A DNA stretch of 64,000 nucleotides from Petroclostridium xylanilyticum (GTDB lineage Bacteria; Bacillota; Clostridia; SK-Y3), in the NCBI RefSeq assembly GCF_002252565.1, contig NZ_NPML01000011.1:1-64000 (forward strand), given 5' to 3'. Both the position numbers and the translations under genes were made by a program. Below are positions 1-62,222 of the stretch, piece by piece (position 1 is the first letter of the stretch; each line of letters opens with the position of its first letter). A model generated the notes under the pieces. That model was given only the letters and a program-made list of their open reading frames with translations, did no database searches and was not told the DNA's origin.

Positions 1-86
<86 letters not shown>

Positions 87-87
87 T

Positions 88-293
88 GTTCACGGTTCAC
101 AGGTCACGGTTCACTGTTCACTGAACCTCTTCTGTCAACCCAATCTGTTCCCCGTTATATATTAATCGTTCAATTTAGCTCATAAACTATTACTAACTTA
201 CTTTATTAAGTACGCTAGGTTTACTCATTTTTTGTTCACACTTTCACTCTCACCGCTCACTTCTGTGAACTGTGAACCGTGAACTGTGAACTA
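88..293. repeat. Inverted heptamer-repeat element in the 16S leader
   Basis: The left arm (88-126) is five 7-bp units of GTTCACG/GTTCACA/GTTCACT type. The right arm (263-293) is four units of CTGTGAA/CCGTGAA type, their reverse complement. The arms bracket about 136 bp of the transcribed 16S leader and the left arm touches the mature 16S 5' end, so the pre-rRNA could fold into a long stem there. It belongs to the dispersed heptamer-arm class seen about ten more times in the window. Confidence 0.8.
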
Positions 294-591: not shown

Positions 592-693
592 ATGGTTAAC
601 ACGAAAAGATTGACTGTTGATTCAGACAAAATAAAAAGTGCAGGTTATGACATTGCTACAAGAACTTTAGAAATATATAGTTCACAGCAGTAA
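592..693 (+). pseudogene. Truncated KTSC-domain-like small protein
   Basis: A 33-residue reading frame starts at ATG after AAGGAG and reads VDSDKIKSAGYDIATRTLEI before ending YSSQQ-stop. The SxxIxxxGYDxxxxTLEI pattern resembles the N-terminal half of the KTSC domain, a small domain normally about 60 residues long. The frame stops exactly where a repeat element with GTTCACA arms begins (680), so the 3' half was probably lost or displaced when the element arrived. The family match is from motif memory and moderate; a functional short peptide is possible but unlikely. Confidence 0.45.
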
Positions 694-779
694 ACGATTT
701 AATAGTTTTTACTGTGAACTGTGAACCGTGAACTTATTGACTTTATCTGCCATGTAAAATCATTATCAGTAAATATATA
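680..779 (+). repeat. Heptamer-arm repeat with conserved tail, copy 1
   Basis: The order is a GTTCACA unit, a core AGTAAACGATTTAATAG, CTGTGAA/CCGTGAA units (712-734), then a conserved 45-bp tail containing GACTTTATCTGCCATGTAAA and ATTATCAGTAAATATATA. The same core and tail occur at 43358-43457 (plus) and 33363-33499 (minus), so this is a true dispersed family and not a chance palindrome. Confidence 0.85.
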
Positions 780-3565: not shown

Positions 3566-5549
3566 CGGGTCTTTGACAGTTGAATAAAGAAAAAATTCCT
3601 GAAAGCCTTGAAATAGGCTTATTTTTTTGTCAATTTTTTTATTTTTGTATATCGCACTTTCTCGCACTGTGTTATAATATAAGTATAGGAGGCGATATTA
3701 TAAATGAGACTTAAGGTTACAAAATCTAAAAATTCTGCTTCGCTTTATGTTATTAAATCTATTTATAACAGCAAAACTCAATCAAATTCCTCCAAGATTG
3801 TAGAAAAGCTTGGTACAGAAGCTGAACTAAGAGAAAAACTCAATGGCGCAGATCCGTATGAATGGGCTAAAGAATATATTAGAAAATTAAATGAAAAGGA
3901 AAAAAAACAAACCCGAAAAATACTTGTTCCTTTTCAGCAGTCTAAAATTATTCCAAAAGAAGAGCAACGCTCTTTTAACGGTGGTTATCTATTTCTTCAA
4001 AAAATATATCACGAACTTGGACTTCACAAGATTTGCAAGGAGATTTCACGAAAGTATAAATTTGATTTTGACTTGGATTCAATACTTTCCAGGTTAATCT
4101 ACGGTAGAGTGATCTTTCCATCCTCTAAACTTGCTACATATGAGCTTTCTAAAAAATTTATCGAGCAGCCGAATTTTGATTTGCATCAAATATACAGAGC
4201 TCTTGAATTCCTTGCTAAGGAGACAGATTTTATCCAGTCCTCCTTGTATGAAAACAGCCTGAAGGTTTCCAAAAGAAATACCGGTATTCTTTACTATGAT
4301 TGCACCAATTACTTTTTTGAAATTGAACAGGAGGATGGCAACAAGCAATATGGTCCTTCTAAAGATCACAAACCCAATCCGATCATTCAAATGGGACTGT
4401 TTATGGACGGAGATGGAATCCCTCTGGCTTTCAGCATTAACAAAGGGAATATGAATGAACAACTGACTTTAAAGCCATTAGAAAAGAAAATTATTTCTGA
4501 CTTTGAACTTTCTAAGTTTATTGTTTGCACAGATGCAGGCCTTGCTTCTGAAGATAATCGAAAGTTTAACGACAAGGATGGCCGGGCATTTATTACAACA
4601 CAGTCTATCAAAAAATTAAAGGAACATTTAAAAAAATGGGCTCTTGCTCCAAATGGCTGGAAACTCCCGGGCAGCGATAAAACCTATGACATTTCCAAAC
4701 TTGATGAAATGATAGATAAAGCTGCTCCTGAAGATAAAACGAAAATAAGGGCAAAAGTATTTTATAAGGAGCGCTGGATTAAAGAAAAAGATTTTGAACA
4801 AAGGCTGATTATAACGTATTCTATCAAATACAGGGATTATCAGCGTAAAATCCGCAACTCTCAAATAGAAAGAGCTCAAAAGGCAATAGAAAACAACCCG
4901 ACAAAAATCAAGAAATGCAATGCTAACGATTACAAAAGGTTTATTACCAAAACAAGCTGTACTGCTGATGGAGAAGTTGCAGAAAACGAGATATACAGCA
5001 TTGATTCTGCTCTAATCCAGAAGGAAGAAGCTTTTGATGGTTTTTATGGGGTTTGCACAAACCTTGAGGATGATGTATCTGAAATAATCAAGGTTAATCA
5101 CAGAAGATGGGAGATTGAAGAATGCTTTAGAATTATGAAAAGCGAATTCAAAGCAAGACCTGTGTATTTAAGCAATGATGACAGGATTGAAGCACATTTT
5201 ATTACTTGCTTTATATCTCTGATTATTTACAGGTTGCTTGAAAAGCGTCTGCATGAGGAGTTTACTTGTCATGAGATTATCTCCGGACTTCGAAATATAG
5301 AATTCTATAATACTCAATGTGAAGGCTATATTCCAACCTATACAAGAACTGATTTTACTGATGCTTTACATGATGCTTTTGGTTTTCGTACAGATTATCA
5401 AATTATTAGTACAAGTATGATGAAAAAAATTTTAAAAGAAACAAAAAAATAAAAAAAGTACGCACTTTTTGAACACGTGAAGAAAGCTTGAAACTTAGTT
5501 TTTTCAACCAGTTACAAGCTTTTTTTGTTTTCCAACTGTCAAACTTGGG
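3566..5549 (+). mobile_element. IS1634-type insertion sequence, copy 1 (1984 bp)
   Basis: The ends are imperfect inverted repeats sharing the core TTTGACAGTTG (left end CGGGTC before it, right end CTTGGG after its complement). One transposase gene fills the element. A hairpin with T-run just inside the left end (3603-3627) and another just after the transposase (5484-5528) should insulate it from outside transcription. The element is flanked by a 143-bp direct repeat. Long, variable duplications are known for IS1634 and IS1549 relatives, so this is family-typical although unusual for insertion sequences in general. Confidence 0.95.
3704..5452 (+). CDS. IS1634-family transposase, copy 1
   Basis: A 582-residue DDE transposase. 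The first catalytic Asp is D199 in YDCTNYFFE, the second D277 in VCTDAGLAS, and the Glu E472 lies in HRRWEIEECFRIMKSEF, which also fits the R(3)E(6)K signature of IS4/IS1634-group enzymes. The length is normal for the family and the frame is intact, so the element should be able to move. The start ATG follows AGGAGG by 11 nt, and a TATAAT (3673-3678) lies upstream inside the element. The protein is identical in all three copies, which points to recent transposition. Confidence 0.95.
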   Translation: MRLKVTKSKNSASLYVIKSIYNSKTQSNSSKIVEKLGTEAELREKLNGADPYEWAKEYIRKLNEKEKKQTRKILVPFQQSKIIPKEEQRSFNGGYLFLQKIYHELGLHKICKEISRKYKFDFDLDSILSRLIYGRVIFPSSKLATYELSKKFIEQPNFDLHQIYRALEFLAKETDFIQSSLYENSLKVSKRNTGILYYDCTNYFFEIEQEDGNKQYGPSKDHKPNPIIQMGLFMDGDGIPLAFSINKGNMNEQLTLKPLEKKIISDFELSKFIVCTDAGLASEDNRKFNDKDGRAFITTQSIKKLKEHLKKWALAPNGWKLPGSDKTYDISKLDEMIDKAAPEDKTKIRAKVFYKERWIKEKDFEQRLIITYSIKYRDYQRKIRNSQIERAQKAIENNPTKIKKCNANDYKRFITKTSCTADGEVAENEIYSIDSALIQKEEAFDGFYGVCTNLEDDVSEIIKVNHRRWEIEECFRIMKSEFKARPVYLSNDDRIEAHFITCFISLIIYRLLEKRLHEEFTCHEIISGLRNIEFYNTQCEGYIPTYTRTDFTDALHDAFGFRTDYQIISTSMMKKILKETKK

Positions 5550-5692
5550 ATTTTAACAAATTTTTTGTCATTTGTAAAGTATTATTTTTTTCCAATGCGT
5601 GTATTTTCTTAATTATTTTTTACAATTGTGCCTGCAATAAAACCTTCTTTTCTCTCCTTCAATTGAACTTTCATAATCTGACCTTCTATGTC
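5550..5692. repeat. Target-site duplication, right copy, of IS copy 1
   Basis: Identical to 3423-3565. This copy holds the true 3' end of mtaB including its stop codon, so mtaB is not damaged. It also carries a second copy of the tRNA-Arg promoter that points into the right end of the element. Confidence 0.95.
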
Positions 5693-9360: not shown

Positions 9361-9451
9361 GTACTAAAATTCAAATTTTAAGAGAAAATAATAATGTGGC
9401 AAAAATAATATTTATGGAGTGATTTAAAATGGCTGATGATATCTTTAGAAA
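9331..9451. repeat. Target-site duplication, left copy, of IS copy 2 (121 bp)
   Basis: Identical to 11436-11556. It keeps the promoter region of the PsiE-like gene and ends eight codons into a duplicated copy of the small gene that is intact on the other side. Confidence 0.95.
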
Positions 9452-9473
9452 CGGGTCTTTGACAGTTGAATAA
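9429..9473 (+). pseudogene. Duplicated 5' fragment of the small gene at 11534
   Basis: The target duplication copied the ribosome binding site, start codon and first seven codons (MADDIFR) of the small gene. Reading then runs into the left end of the insertion sequence and stops after 14 codons. It is a by-product of transposition. Confidence 0.9.
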
Positions 9474-11435
9474 AGAAAAAATTCCTGAAAGCCTTGAAAT
9501 AGGCTTATTTTTTTGTCAATTTTTTTATTTTTGTATATCGCACTTTCTCGCACTGTGTTATAATATAAGTATAGGAGGCGATATTATAAATGAGACTTAA
9601 GGTTACAAAATCTAAAAATTCTGCTTCGCTTTATGTTATTAAATCTATTTATAACAGCAAAACTCAATCAAATTCCTCCAAGATTGTAGAAAAGCTTGGT
9701 ACAGAAGCTGAACTAAGAGAAAAACTCAATGGCGCAGATCCGTATGAATGGGCTAAAGAATATATTAGAAAATTAAATGAAAAGGAAAAAAAACAAACCC
9801 GAAAAATACTTGTTCCTTTTCAGCAGTCTAAAATTATTCCAAAAGAAGAGCAACGCTCTTTTAACGGTGGTTATCTATTTCTTCAAAAAATATATCACGA
9901 ACTTGGACTTCACAAGATTTGCAAGGAGATTTCACGAAAGTATAAATTTGATTTTGACTTGGATTCAATACTTTCCAGGTTAATCTACGGTAGAGTGATC
10001 TTTCCATCCTCTAAACTTGCTACATATGAGCTTTCTAAAAAATTTATCGAGCAGCCGAATTTTGATTTGCATCAAATATACAGAGCTCTTGAATTCCTTG
10101 CTAAGGAGACAGATTTTATCCAGTCCTCCTTGTATGAAAACAGCCTGAAGGTTTCCAAAAGAAATACCGGTATTCTTTACTATGATTGCACCAATTACTT
10201 TTTTGAAATTGAACAGGAGGATGGCAACAAGCAATATGGTCCTTCTAAAGATCACAAACCCAATCCGATCATTCAAATGGGACTGTTTATGGACGGAGAT
10301 GGAATCCCTCTGGCTTTCAGCATTAACAAAGGGAATATGAATGAACAACTGACTTTAAAGCCATTAGAAAAGAAAATTATTTCTGACTTTGAACTTTCTA
10401 AGTTTATTGTTTGCACAGATGCAGGCCTTGCTTCTGAAGATAATCGAAAGTTTAACGACAAGGATGGCCGGGCATTTATTACAACACAGTCTATCAAAAA
10501 ATTAAAGGAACATTTAAAAAAATGGGCTCTTGCTCCAAATGGCTGGAAACTCCCGGGCAGCGATAAAACCTATGACATTTCCAAACTTGATGAAATGATA
10601 GATAAAGCTGCTCCTGAAGATAAAACGAAAATAAGGGCAAAAGTATTTTATAAGGAGCGCTGGATTAAAGAAAAAGATTTTGAACAAAGGCTGATTATAA
10701 CGTATTCTATCAAATACAGGGATTATCAGCGTAAAATCCGCAACTCTCAAATAGAAAGAGCTCAAAAGGCAATAGAAAACAACCCGACAAAAATCAAGAA
10801 ATGCAATGCTAACGATTACAAAAGGTTTATTACCAAAACAAGCTGTACTGCTGATGGAGAAGTTGCAGAAAACGAGATATACAGCATTGATTCTGCTCTA
10901 ATCCAGAAGGAAGAAGCTTTTGATGGTTTTTATGGGGTTTGCACAAACCTTGAGGATGATGTATCTGAAATAATCAAGGTTAATCACAGAAGATGGGAGA
11001 TTGAAGAATGCTTTAGAATTATGAAAAGCGAATTCAAAGCAAGACCTGTGTATTTAAGCAATGATGACAGGATTGAAGCACATTTTATTACTTGCTTTAT
11101 ATCTCTGATTATTTACAGGTTGCTTGAAAAGCGTCTGCATGAGGAGTTTACTTGTCATGAGATTATCTCCGGACTTCGAAATATAGAATTCTATAATACT
11201 CAATGTGAAGGCTATATTCCAACCTATACAAGAACTGATTTTACTGATGCTTTACATGATGCTTTTGGTTTTCGTACAGATTATCAAATTATTAGTACAA
11301 GTATGATGAAAAAAATTTTAAAAGAAACAAAAAAATAAAAAAAGTACGCACTTTTTGAACACGTGAAGAAAGCTTGAAACTTAGTTTTTTCAACCAGTTA
11401 CAAGCTTTTTTTGTTTTCCAACTGTCAAACTTGGG
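9452..11435 (+). mobile_element. IS1634-type insertion sequence, copy 2 (1984 bp)
   Basis: Same length, ends and transposase as copy 1. Its first base C has no partner in the target duplication, which fixes the left boundary of the whole family as CGGGTCTTTGACAG. The flanking direct repeat is 121 bp and unrelated in sequence to those of the other copies except for its first bases, ATTATA. Confidence 0.95.
9590..11338 (+). CDS. IS1634-family transposase, copy 2
   Basis: A 582-residue DDE transposase with the same protein sequence as the copy at 3704 (D199, D277, E472 intact). Confidence 0.95.
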   Translation: MRLKVTKSKNSASLYVIKSIYNSKTQSNSSKIVEKLGTEAELREKLNGADPYEWAKEYIRKLNEKEKKQTRKILVPFQQSKIIPKEEQRSFNGGYLFLQKIYHELGLHKICKEISRKYKFDFDLDSILSRLIYGRVIFPSSKLATYELSKKFIEQPNFDLHQIYRALEFLAKETDFIQSSLYENSLKVSKRNTGILYYDCTNYFFEIEQEDGNKQYGPSKDHKPNPIIQMGLFMDGDGIPLAFSINKGNMNEQLTLKPLEKKIISDFELSKFIVCTDAGLASEDNRKFNDKDGRAFITTQSIKKLKEHLKKWALAPNGWKLPGSDKTYDISKLDEMIDKAAPEDKTKIRAKVFYKERWIKEKDFEQRLIITYSIKYRDYQRKIRNSQIERAQKAIENNPTKIKKCNANDYKRFITKTSCTADGEVAENEIYSIDSALIQKEEAFDGFYGVCTNLEDDVSEIIKVNHRRWEIEECFRIMKSEFKARPVYLSNDDRIEAHFITCFISLIIYRLLEKRLHEEFTCHEIISGLRNIEFYNTQCEGYIPTYTRTDFTDALHDAFGFRTDYQIISTSMMKKILKETKK

Positions 11436-11556
11436 ATTATATATAATGAAACTTTTAATTGTCCAGTACTAAAATTCAAATTTTAAGAGAAAATAATAAT
11501 GTGGCAAAAATAATATTTATGGAGTGATTTAAAATGGCTGATGATATCTTTAGAAA
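11436..11556. repeat. Target-site duplication, right copy, of IS copy 2
   Basis: Identical to 9331-9451. It restores the 5' end and ribosome binding site of the small gene at 11534. Confidence 0.95.
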
Positions 11557-15162: not shown

Positions 15163-15245
15163 TATTTTTTTTAATTTTTTTTTTAAGGAAAGGAAATTAT
15201 AAATTTTAAAGTGTTCAGGCAAACAAAGGGACAGCAAACAAAGCA
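15134..15245. repeat. Target-site duplication, left copy, of IS copy 3 (112 bp)
   Basis: Identical to 17230-17341. It contains the complete tRNA promoter and part of the CAAACAAAGGGACA repeat that borders the tyrosine-transposase element. Confidence 0.95.
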
Positions 15246-17229
15246 CGGGTCTTTGACAGTTGAATAAAGAAAAAATTCCTGAAAGCCTTGAAATAGGCTT
15301 ATTTTTTTGTCAATTTTTTTATTTTTGTATATCGCACTTTCTCGCACTGTGTTATAATATAAGTATAGGAGGCGATATTATAAATGAGACTTAAGGTTAC
15401 AAAATCTAAAAATTCTGCTTCGCTTTATGTTATTAAATCTATTTATAACAGCAAAACTCAATCAAATTCCTCCAAGATTGTAGAAAAGCTTGGTACAGAA
15501 GCTGAACTAAGAGAAAAACTCAATGGCGCAGATCCGTATGAATGGGCTAAAGAATATATTAGAAAATTAAATGAAAAGGAAAAAAAACAAACCCGAAAAA
15601 TACTTGTTCCTTTTCAGCAGTCTAAAATTATTCCAAAAGAAGAGCAACGCTCTTTTAACGGTGGTTATCTATTTCTTCAAAAAATATATCACGAACTTGG
15701 ACTTCACAAGATTTGCAAGGAGATTTCACGAAAGTATAAATTTGATTTTGACTTGGATTCAATACTTTCCAGGTTAATCTACGGTAGAGTGATCTTTCCA
15801 TCCTCTAAACTTGCTACATATGAGCTTTCTAAAAAATTTATCGAGCAGCCGAATTTTGATTTGCATCAAATATACAGAGCTCTTGAATTCCTTGCTAAGG
15901 AGACAGATTTTATCCAGTCCTCCTTGTATGAAAACAGCCTGAAGGTTTCCAAAAGAAATACCGGTATTCTTTACTATGATTGCACCAATTACTTTTTTGA
16001 AATTGAACAGGAGGATGGCAACAAGCAATATGGTCCTTCTAAAGATCACAAACCCAATCCGATCATTCAAATGGGACTGTTTATGGACGGAGATGGAATC
16101 CCTCTGGCTTTCAGCATTAACAAAGGGAATATGAATGAACAACTGACTTTAAAGCCATTAGAAAAGAAAATTATTTCTGACTTTGAACTTTCTAAGTTTA
16201 TTGTTTGCACAGATGCAGGCCTTGCTTCTGAAGATAATCGAAAGTTTAACGACAAGGATGGCCGGGCATTTATTACAACACAGTCTATCAAAAAATTAAA
16301 GGAACATTTAAAAAAATGGGCTCTTGCTCCAAATGGCTGGAAACTCCCGGGCAGCGATAAAACCTATGACATTTCCAAACTTGATGAAATGATAGATAAA
16401 GCTGCTCCTGAAGATAAAACGAAAATAAGGGCAAAAGTATTTTATAAGGAGCGCTGGATTAAAGAAAAAGATTTTGAACAAAGGCTGATTATAACGTATT
16501 CTATCAAATACAGGGATTATCAGCGTAAAATCCGCAACTCTCAAATAGAAAGAGCTCAAAAGGCAATAGAAAACAACCCGACAAAAATCAAGAAATGCAA
16601 TGCTAACGATTACAAAAGGTTTATTACCAAAACAAGCTGTACTGCTGATGGAGAAGTTGCAGAAAACGAGATATACAGCATTGATTCTGCTCTAATCCAG
16701 AAGGAAGAAGCTTTTGATGGTTTTTATGGGGTTTGCACAAACCTTGAGGATGATGTATCTGAAATAATCAAGGTTAATCACAGAAGATGGGAGATTGAAG
16801 AATGCTTTAGAATTATGAAAAGCGAATTCAAAGCAAGACCTGTGTATTTAAGCAATGATGACAGGATTGAAGCACATTTTATTACTTGCTTTATATCTCT
16901 GATTATTTACAGGTTGCTTGAAAAGCGTCTGCATGAGGAGTTTACTTGTCATGAGATTATCTCCGGACTTCGAAATATAGAATTCTATAATACTCAATGT
17001 GAAGGCTATATTCCAACCTATACAAGAACTGATTTTACTGATGCTTTACATGATGCTTTTGGTTTTCGTACAGATTATCAAATTATTAGTACAAGTATGA
17101 TGAAAAAAATTTTAAAAGAAACAAAAAAATAAAAAAAGTACGCACTTTTTGAACACGTGAAGAAAGCTTGAAACTTAGTTTTTTCAACCAGTTACAAGCT
17201 TTTTTTGTTTTCCAACTGTCAAACTTGGG
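15246..17229 (+). mobile_element. IS1634-type insertion sequence, copy 3 (1984 bp)
   Basis: Same length and ends as the other two. It is inserted between the tRNA promoter and the tyrosine-transposase element. The duplicated segment leaves the tRNA operon with its full promoter. Confidence 0.95.
15384..17132 (+). CDS. IS1634-family transposase, copy 3
   Basis: A 582-residue DDE transposase with the same protein sequence as the copies at 3704 and 9590; frame intact. Confidence 0.95.
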   Translation: MRLKVTKSKNSASLYVIKSIYNSKTQSNSSKIVEKLGTEAELREKLNGADPYEWAKEYIRKLNEKEKKQTRKILVPFQQSKIIPKEEQRSFNGGYLFLQKIYHELGLHKICKEISRKYKFDFDLDSILSRLIYGRVIFPSSKLATYELSKKFIEQPNFDLHQIYRALEFLAKETDFIQSSLYENSLKVSKRNTGILYYDCTNYFFEIEQEDGNKQYGPSKDHKPNPIIQMGLFMDGDGIPLAFSINKGNMNEQLTLKPLEKKIISDFELSKFIVCTDAGLASEDNRKFNDKDGRAFITTQSIKKLKEHLKKWALAPNGWKLPGSDKTYDISKLDEMIDKAAPEDKTKIRAKVFYKERWIKEKDFEQRLIITYSIKYRDYQRKIRNSQIERAQKAIENNPTKIKKCNANDYKRFITKTSCTADGEVAENEIYSIDSALIQKEEAFDGFYGVCTNLEDDVSEIIKVNHRRWEIEECFRIMKSEFKARPVYLSNDDRIEAHFITCFISLIIYRLLEKRLHEEFTCHEIISGLRNIEFYNTQCEGYIPTYTRTDFTDALHDAFGFRTDYQIISTSMMKKILKETKK

Positions 17230-17341
17230 ATTATACACGGATCCATATTAGTTGTCAATATTTTTTTTAATTTTTTTTTTAAGGAAAGGAAATTATAAAT
17301 TTTAAAGTGTTCAGGCAAACAAAGGGACAGCAAACAAAGCA
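17230..17341. repeat. Target-site duplication, right copy, of IS copy 3
   Basis: Identical to 15134-15245. Here the duplicated TTGACA-N17-TATAAT promoter points leftwards into the right end of the insertion sequence, antisense to the transposase. Confidence 0.95.
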
Positions 17342-30358: not shown

Positions 30359-30423
30359 CGTTCGCGGTTCACAGAAGCCCAAAAGCAACCACCTGCGAAC
30401 CATGAACCGTGAACTGTGAACTG
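30359..30423. repeat. Heptamer-repeat element between grpE and dnaK
   Basis: The left arm is GTTCGCG/GTTCACA units (30359-30374); the right arm is CTGCGAA/CCATGAA/CCGTGAA/CTGTGAA units (30393-30423). It starts 3 bp after the grpE stop on the transcript side and would form a hairpin within the operon mRNA. Confidence 0.8.
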
Positions 30424-30425
30424 TT

Positions 30426-33362: not shown

Positions 33363-33499
33363 ATCTATATATTTACTGATAATGATTTTACATGGCAGAT
33401 AAAGTCAATAAGTTCACAGTTCACGGTTCACAGCAAAAGCTATTAAATCGTTTATTACTGTTAACTGTTAACTGTTAACTGTTAACTGTGAACTGTGAA
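33363..33499 (-). repeat. Heptamer-arm repeat with conserved tail, copy 2
   Basis: Inverted relative to the copies at 680 and 43358. On the minus strand the first arm has expanded to six tandem heptamers (CTGTGAA complements and CTGTTAA variants), then comes the core AAACGATTTAATAGCTTTT, the second arm and the conserved GACTTTATCTGCCATGTAAA tail. It fills most of the lepA-hemW gap. Confidence 0.88.
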
Positions 33500-33513
33500 C
33501 CATATATAATATC

Positions 33514-43310: not shown

Positions 43311-43357
43311 ACTATTTTTAATATTTTCCATAAAAATTTTTTATTTCTATGATAATA

Positions 43358-43457
43358 GTTCACAGTTCACAGTAGTAAACGATTTAATAGCTTTTACTGT
43401 GAACTGTGAACTTATTTGACTTTATCTGCCATGTAAATCATTATCAGTAAATATATA
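43358..43457 (+). repeat. Heptamer-arm repeat with conserved tail, copy 3
   Basis: GTTCACA units, core AGTAAACGATTTAATAG, CTGTGAA units, then the tail with GACTTTATCTGCCATGTAAA. Nearly the same as copy 1 at 680-779. It lies between the acetyltransferase stop and the NlpC promoter. Confidence 0.88.
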
Positions 43458-45543: not shown

Positions 45544-45914
45544 CACTTTTTTCATCTTTTTTTATAACTAGCCAACTTTAAAGCTAAATATTATAATTTT
45601 AAAGTTGATTAATTTCATCGATAACTACATTAATCATTTTTAATTTTAATATTTGTTATCAATATAATTATCATTTAGCTAAGTTATAATTACTTAACTA
45701 AGCTCTGAAACAACCAGCGAAGACTAGTATAGCCTAAACAATCTACAAAGTCAACCCTAAAAATAACTTTTATATTAAATTACGTCGCTCTTTCTTGCTA
45801 ATAATCAATTTAGTTCAGCATATCTACATTATATGCATATTTTATTACAAGTTCACGCTTCACAGTTAATAGGAAGCATCAGTTCCGTATCGTCCCTGTG
45901 CTTCCCTCTTTTAG
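45544..45914. other. AT-rich gap between the tRNA operon and the Clp ATPase gene
   Basis: No gene is visible. A short one-armed GTTCACG/CTTCACA/GTTAATA heptamer run lies at 45851-45870. A weak stem (GGAAGCATCAG/CTGTGCTTCC, 45872-45905) may end the Clp ATPase transcript. Confidence 0.5.
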
Positions 45915-48376: not shown

Positions 48377-48487
48377 AAATTTAGGGCGCATTTAATATTT
48401 TTGAAGAATATTATGGAAAGAACGTTGCGGAAAGGCTTAGAACCTGGAATAATATTCTTCAAAAATAAAGTATACGCCCCAAAATTT
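48377..48487. repeat. Palindromic repeat with GGCTTAG core, copy A
   Basis: An imperfect inverted repeat of about 37 bp (AGGGCGCATTTAATATTTTT side and its partner) flanks the core TATGGAAAGAACGTTGCGGA followed by AAGGCTTAGAACCTGGAAT. Copy B at 62126-62222 has the same design and core. An AAAATTT direct repeat borders it and could be a target duplication. Confidence 0.82.
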
Positions 48488-62125: not shown

Positions 62126-62222
62126 GGGTGGATATTTTTTAGTTGATGAATATTATTCCAATCTCTAAGCCTTTTCACAACGTTCTTTCCATAAATATTC
62201 ATCAACTAAATTAAATACACCC
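62126..62222. repeat. Palindromic repeat with GGCTTAG core, copy B
   Basis: On the minus strand: GGGTGTATTTAATTTAGTTG, then ATGGAAAGAACGTTGTGAAA, then AGGCTTAGAGATTGG and the inverted partner arm. The core agrees with copy A at 48377. ATA is repeated on both sides. It fills most of the gap between pgsA and the thioesterase gene. Confidence 0.82.

Follow-up and report, generated by a model that had tools for sequence, protein, structure and literature searches.

A non-coding repeat, here called F1, is dispersed through the genome of Petroclostridium xylanilyticum in about 50-60 copies, three of which lie in the window, the 64,000-nucleotide stretch analysed here (contig NZ_NPML01000011.1, positions 1 to 64,000). 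Its dispersal goes with duplication of a target TA and with a preference for certain bases around it, and its copies vary in two heptamer arms by whole units. F1 is very probably a MITE that is cut at its TATA ends by an IS630/Tc1-mariner transposase, most likely of the ISBs2 group, and inserted at TA, with arms that slip by 7-bp units. The enzyme, its action on F1 in trans and slippage as the molecular cause are what we infer from these observations.

Anatomy of F1 and its copies in the window

The initial annotation described three copies in the window and proposed a count of core and tail in the whole genome. A pattern of the core plus the first right-arm unit matches 58 sites genome-wide, and a 33-bp tail pattern with up to 3 mismatches matches 46 sites in the 3.86-Mb genome; the reversed control gave 0 in each case. 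At least 51 copies are complete with core and tail, and the 51 having both were extracted and parsed for the arm, flank and target statistics. The consensus consists of TATA, a left heptamer arm (GTTCACA GTTAACA GTTCTCA GTTCACA followed by GTAGT), a 22-bp core (AAACGATTTAATAGCTTTTACT), a complementary right arm (GTGAACC GTGAACT GTGAAC) and a tail of ~45 bp (TTATTGACTTTATCTGCCATGTAAAATCATTATCAGTAAATATA) that ends in TATA, and it is flanked by TA on both sides. The length is ~100-153 bp, or 105-157 bp including the TA pairs, with roughly 120 bp typical. The right boundary is abrupt, the information content falling from 1.7 to 0.2 bits within one position, and in a terminal inverted repeat test the two termini have only TATA and a few bases in common. 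In a fold of the element as single-stranded RNA, the two arms pair with each other (-29.9 kcal/mol, z = -3.45). Orientation is mixed (28 and 30 of the 58 cores per strand), and 50 of the 51 parsed copies are intergenic by crude ORF calls. An Rfam search of the elements gave no match.

Copy A lies on the plus strand at 674-779 (TA 674-675, element 676-777, TA 778-779) and comprises a one-unit left arm (680-691), the core (692-713), a three-unit right arm (714-733) and the tail (734-777). Copy B, on the minus strand at 33366-33506 (TA 33505-33506, element 33368-33504, TA 33366-33367), fills most of the gap between lepA and hemW; its parts are a six-unit left arm (33454-33500), the core (33432-33453), a three-unit right arm (33412-33431) and the tail (33368-33411), and its RNA fold has z = -3.59. 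Copy C, on the plus strand at 43353-43457 including the TA duplications, has two-unit left and right arms (43358-43376 and 43399-43411) around the core (43377-43398), followed by the tail (43412-43455), and its left terminal TATA is eroded to ATA. Pairwise identity among the three is 88-93% over 101-116 bp.

The initial annotation located all three copies correctly, and the blocks AAACGATTTAATAG and GACTTTATCTGCCATGTAAA that it named are exact in each of them. Its extents were too short, as the element reaches a few bases beyond them, and the ends that it proposed to define are TATA on both sides with TA outside each. What it called a 45-bp tail is the part 3' of the second arm, about 45 bp long with a sharp end after AAATATATA. 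The expansion of the first arm to six units in the minus-strand copy is borne out, with GTTCACA twice and the variant unit GTTAACA four times running.

Other repeats occur in the window as well. An IS1634-family insertion sequence is present in three identical copies (3566-5552, 9451-11441 and 15245-17235), each encoding a 582-aa transposase (NCBIfam NF033559) and surrounded by unusually long direct repeats of about 144, 121 and 113 bp. A 74-bp repeat occurs at 48390-48462 and 62143-62216 in opposite orientation, the two copies being 85% identical.

Insertion sites of F1

The 400-bp flanks of the 51 copies are unrelated, save for short dispersed repeats, chiefly a repeat called F3. The initial annotation had named a larger segmental duplication including flanking genes as the finding that would speak against its reading; since the flanks share nothing beyond these short repeats, segmental duplication is ruled out, and we give practically no weight to the idea that the window copies are parts of such duplications.

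A third family of dispersed repeats, F3 measures about 100 bp, has hairpins of its own and gave 36 pattern matches in the genome; it was seen at L115-L144 and, in the window, at 45559-45667 on the minus strand. F1 and a sister family, F2, have landed in it repeatedly, F2 with TA at each side (L101/L141). F3 also resembles the ends of an IS630 element in another genome (G004, L152), scoring 28 where shuffled sequence reached at most 23. Because several F3 copies hold F1 or F2, the remaining copies can be used as empty sites that expose the F1 insertion site. Such sites had been suggested for relatives; they were found within the genome itself instead, as unoccupied F3 copies. Four F1 copies are nested in F3, and in each case the flanks minus one TA align across the junction to an empty F3 copy: L022 to L132 (98/100, ungapped), L073 to L132 (91/92, ungapped), L025 to L109 (about 96% over 98 bp, one gap) and L070 to L117 (94% over 85 bp, one gap). 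At these four nested sites, which are other than the window copies, F1 is inserted at TA and the TA is duplicated; in the ungapped joins the duplication is exactly 2 bp. The unique flanks, the insertion into F3 and the TA duplication together support the earlier claim that the copies were copied as units.

F1 prefers C-TA-G as a target, as reported for IS630. C precedes the TA in 28 of 51 copies versus 12.7% at background TA (p = 7e-13), and G follows it in 21 of 51 versus 11.8% (p = 1e-7); C and G occur together in only 9 of 51. IS630 is said to transpose preferentially to the TA in CTAG, going by the title of a 1991 paper of Tenzen and Ohtsubo that PMC2170065 cites. Duplication of TA is a mark of IS630/Tc1-mariner elements. 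For ISY100, a member of the IS630 family, it has been demonstrated in vitro (PMC2170065).

Heptamer arms and related repeats

Arm length modulo 7 is constant in 49 of 51 copies for each arm. Left arms in well-parsed copies have 1-6 units, counts of 7 and 8 being parsing errors at L034 and L021, and right arms also have 1-6 units. Left and right unit numbers are uncorrelated (Spearman 0.18, p = 0.20), so the hairpin is not kept to one fixed length. Among six copies that do not differ in core or tail, the arms have 4+2, 4+3, 4+3, 2+3, 4+1 and 4+4 units. The arms thus change by 7-bp steps around a fixed core and tail, which agrees with the initial annotation in tying heptamer slippage to dispersal of the whole element. 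Replication slippage would be the simplest cause of the unit changes; unequal recombination may also lie behind them.

F2, with 17 pattern matches, also has a heptamer hairpin, but its loop is another one, and clear inverted repeats enclose the hairpin. Two kinds of chimera connect F2 with F1, namely an F2 left half with an F1 tail (L084/L099) and an F1 left half with an F2 end (L281); in each, the parts join at the right heptamer arm. A further copy, L283, has no tail and ends GTGAAC-TATATA, mirroring its own left end.

Heptamer arrays also occur outside F1. In the window, an array at 87-121 (minus strand), just upstream of the 16S rRNA 5' end, has neither F1 core nor tail; another at 263-292 (plus strand), farther upstream in the 16S leader, forms a hairpin with a degenerate second arm and is not F1; and a stand-alone hairpin at 30365-30425 (plus strand), in an intergenic gap, has its own loop and is not F1 either. 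More generally, heptamer arrays adjoin the 16S rRNA 5' end on its upstream side and occur close to an apparent 5S rRNA, places at which stems for rRNA processing would be expected (window 1-292; L083, L084, L096, L097). Both arms are present at 22 of 30 heptamer sites examined, some F1 and F2 copies included. Arrays of other units, such as AATTGAG/AATTGAC and AATAATT/AATAATG, occur in the same and in unrelated genomes (L081, L124, L152 and several public loci), and a period of 7 recurs with many sequences.

Three-unit arrays were found in only 3 of 196 genomes of the class, all three from the family of the window's genome, with none for the reversed control; the counts are 97 in the genome itself, 68 in Petroclostridium sp. 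X23 (NZ_CP124862) and 5 in a third genome, G001. The heptamer CTGTGAACYGTGAACYGTGAACT is found in many phyla, yet scrambled heptamers match IMG/VR about equally (5 matches vs 7 and 4 for two scrambled versions); matches in other phyla are therefore no sign of sharing, and horizontal sharing of the heptamer was rejected. No F1 was found in plasmids, phages, IMG/VR or other GTDB species by blastn or the exact tail pattern. Within the family a single F1 core was found, in G001, on a segment that is also present in the genome studied here. This segment is at least 7.3 kb long (L285, G001:C93, against L286, C13:236000-255500); it is 98.5% identical across genera, after which identity falls to about 74% and the sequences stay collinear. 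It contains galT and a tail-truncated F1 copy, and reflects either recent recombination or a chimeric contig.

It is conceivable, if doubtful, that the heptamer hairpin is a module of its own. In this family of Clostridia it would then have made its way into two or more IS630-type MITE families (F1 and F2) as well as into rRNA leaders and further places between genes. Its arms would act as exchange tracts where MITEs trade ends and so give rise to new families, as in the chimeras L084/L099 and L281.

Candidate transposase and comparison with known systems

A search with the DDE_3 family model found no intact IS630 transposase in the genome. The same model picked up decayed IS630 pieces, as sub-threshold fragments at C29:263640 and C29:265531. 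One remnant keeps the transposase C-terminus, 58% identical to the ISBs2 transposase over 43 residues, and its end reads CGA-ATG-TAA-AATCTTTATTGTAATATA-TA. Several ISBs2-group elements (Geobacillus, Enterococcus, IMG/VR contigs) have the stop codon about 15 bp inside the TATA terminus, as in the remnant; in more distant ones (L302-L307) this layout is not exact. Read inward, the right end of F1 is TATA-N15-TTTACAT, a layout common to both F2 ends and the remnant; in such an IS terminus, TTTACAT contains the transposase stop codon, reversed. The remnant is also among the two best non-F1 places for the F1 tail in 483 kb of this genome.

Ends were compared over 26 bases anchored at TATA, with 8,477 TATA sites as background. 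The right ends of F1 and F2 match the right terminus of the remnant at 20/26 and 21/26 (3 and 1 of 8,477 background sites as good), and the F2 left end matches an E. faecium IS630 at 20/26 (2 of 8,477), fractions that are optimistic because the similarity was noticed before testing and the remnant allows more than one TATA register. For the F1 left end the match to an IS end is weak (16/26, with 208 of the 8,477 background sites doing as well), so that the inverted repeats of F1 amount to little more than TATA. Given this weak match, the heptamer hairpin may have taken the place of an earlier left part. An autonomous F2-type element was sought by the 20-bp end of F2, which returned only F2 copies, ends and fragments and a few scattered weak matches without a partner end. 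A weak tail match in G004 (L043) was considered as an autonomous relative and set aside, as no transposase was seen beside it.

F1 most likely spread with the help of an IS630-type transposase. An IS630/Tc1-mariner enzyme, probably of the ISBs2 group, would cut F1 at its TATA ends, and F1 would go into TA, preferably C-TA-G, with the TA becoming duplicated. The tail would be the right terminus of an ISBs2-type IS (TATA, 15 bp, TTTACAT), and the left part a hairpin with tandem heptamer arms, GTTCACA on one side and GTGAACY on the other. Both during dispersal and afterwards, each arm would gain or lose entire 7-bp units on its own, with replication slippage as the simplest route.

F1 could instead have been moved by a different enzyme that duplicates TA or YTAR, for example one of the IS5 family, the IS630-like tail then being due to chance. 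The F1 flanks fit YTAR loosely, and the DDE_3 search left the genome without an intact IS630 gene; the exactly 2-bp duplication in the ungapped joins, together with the match of the F1 right end and both F2 ends to IS630 right termini at the same spacing, makes this an unlikely explanation. High copy number, intergenic location and a strong hairpin (fold z = -3.45) would also suit a hairpin of the REP/BIME kind, mobilised by a single-strand Y1 transposase (RAYT, IS200/IS605 type). The F1 insertion sites, however, carry a duplicated TA, which is unexpected for IS200/IS605-type insertion, and such an origin is very improbable.

Equally improbable is that F1 is a conserved regulatory or structured RNA, such as a 5' UTR switch or an RNase III site, and not a mobile element. 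Copy B sits between the co-directional genes lepA and hemW, at 7-10 bp from them, and heptamer arms also adjoin rRNA genes, as such an RNA might. Against it stand the empty Rfam search, the unrelated neighbours, the presence of both orientations (28 and 30), the insertion into other repeats and the free drift of arm lengths; by crude gene calls, no common function or fixed position relative to genes was seen across copies. F1 may still have a secondary effect on mRNA.

Several known systems come close to F1. ISBs2-group IS630 elements of Geobacillus and of Enterococcus plasmids share TATA termini in a C-TA...TA-G context, and their right end lies ~15-16 bp past the transposase stop codon, as in the F1 tail and both F2 ends; unlike F1, they are about 1.1 kb long, encode a transposase and have no heptamers. 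In behaviour, the system that appears closest by analogy is RUP of Streptococcus pneumoniae, which IS630-Spn1 is believed to mobilise (PMC3049150). RUP is a ~107-bp AT-rich, foldable element of ~110 copies with IS630-related ends and a target duplication (PMC3049150). By description, F1 differs in its strong hairpin with varying unit number and in having no long terminal inverted repeats, whereas RUP has no described heptamer array. BOX elements of S. pneumoniae are likewise mobile repeats with a module, boxB, in varying number; their modules (boxA, boxB, boxC) are not 7-bp units, and the proposed partner is ISSpn2 (PMC3049150).

Heptamer repeats are known from Calothrix, as GGGAATC in Xanthomonas and as GGGGAYT in Nostoc (PMC4692102), and as TAACTGA in Beggiatoaceae (PMC4679880). 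Like the F1 arms, they are mostly intergenic 7-bp tandem arrays of varying unit number, some of them inverted, and polymerase slippage has been proposed for them (PMC4692102, PMC4679880). We found no relevant paper on the heptamer sequence in the PMC library, and none in the open-access literature that describes transposon spread and slipping heptamers together in bacteria, with ends swapped between element families. The processes in F1 are each known; the mechanism is ordinary and the combination mildly unusual. That 7-bp repeats are over-represented in bacteria is a known observation with little explanation (PMC4692102). F1 offers the same array in more than 50 separate insertions whose constant core and tail serve as internal controls; for each arm one can thus measure by what step, and at what relative rate, units are gained and lost. 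The chimeras suggest that heptamer arrays help to build new element families by end exchange. Known heptamer repeats are described as arrays in themselves, whereas the F1 array rides within a transposon family with a fixed core and tail, and riding on a transposon is a plain route by which such arrays can spread.
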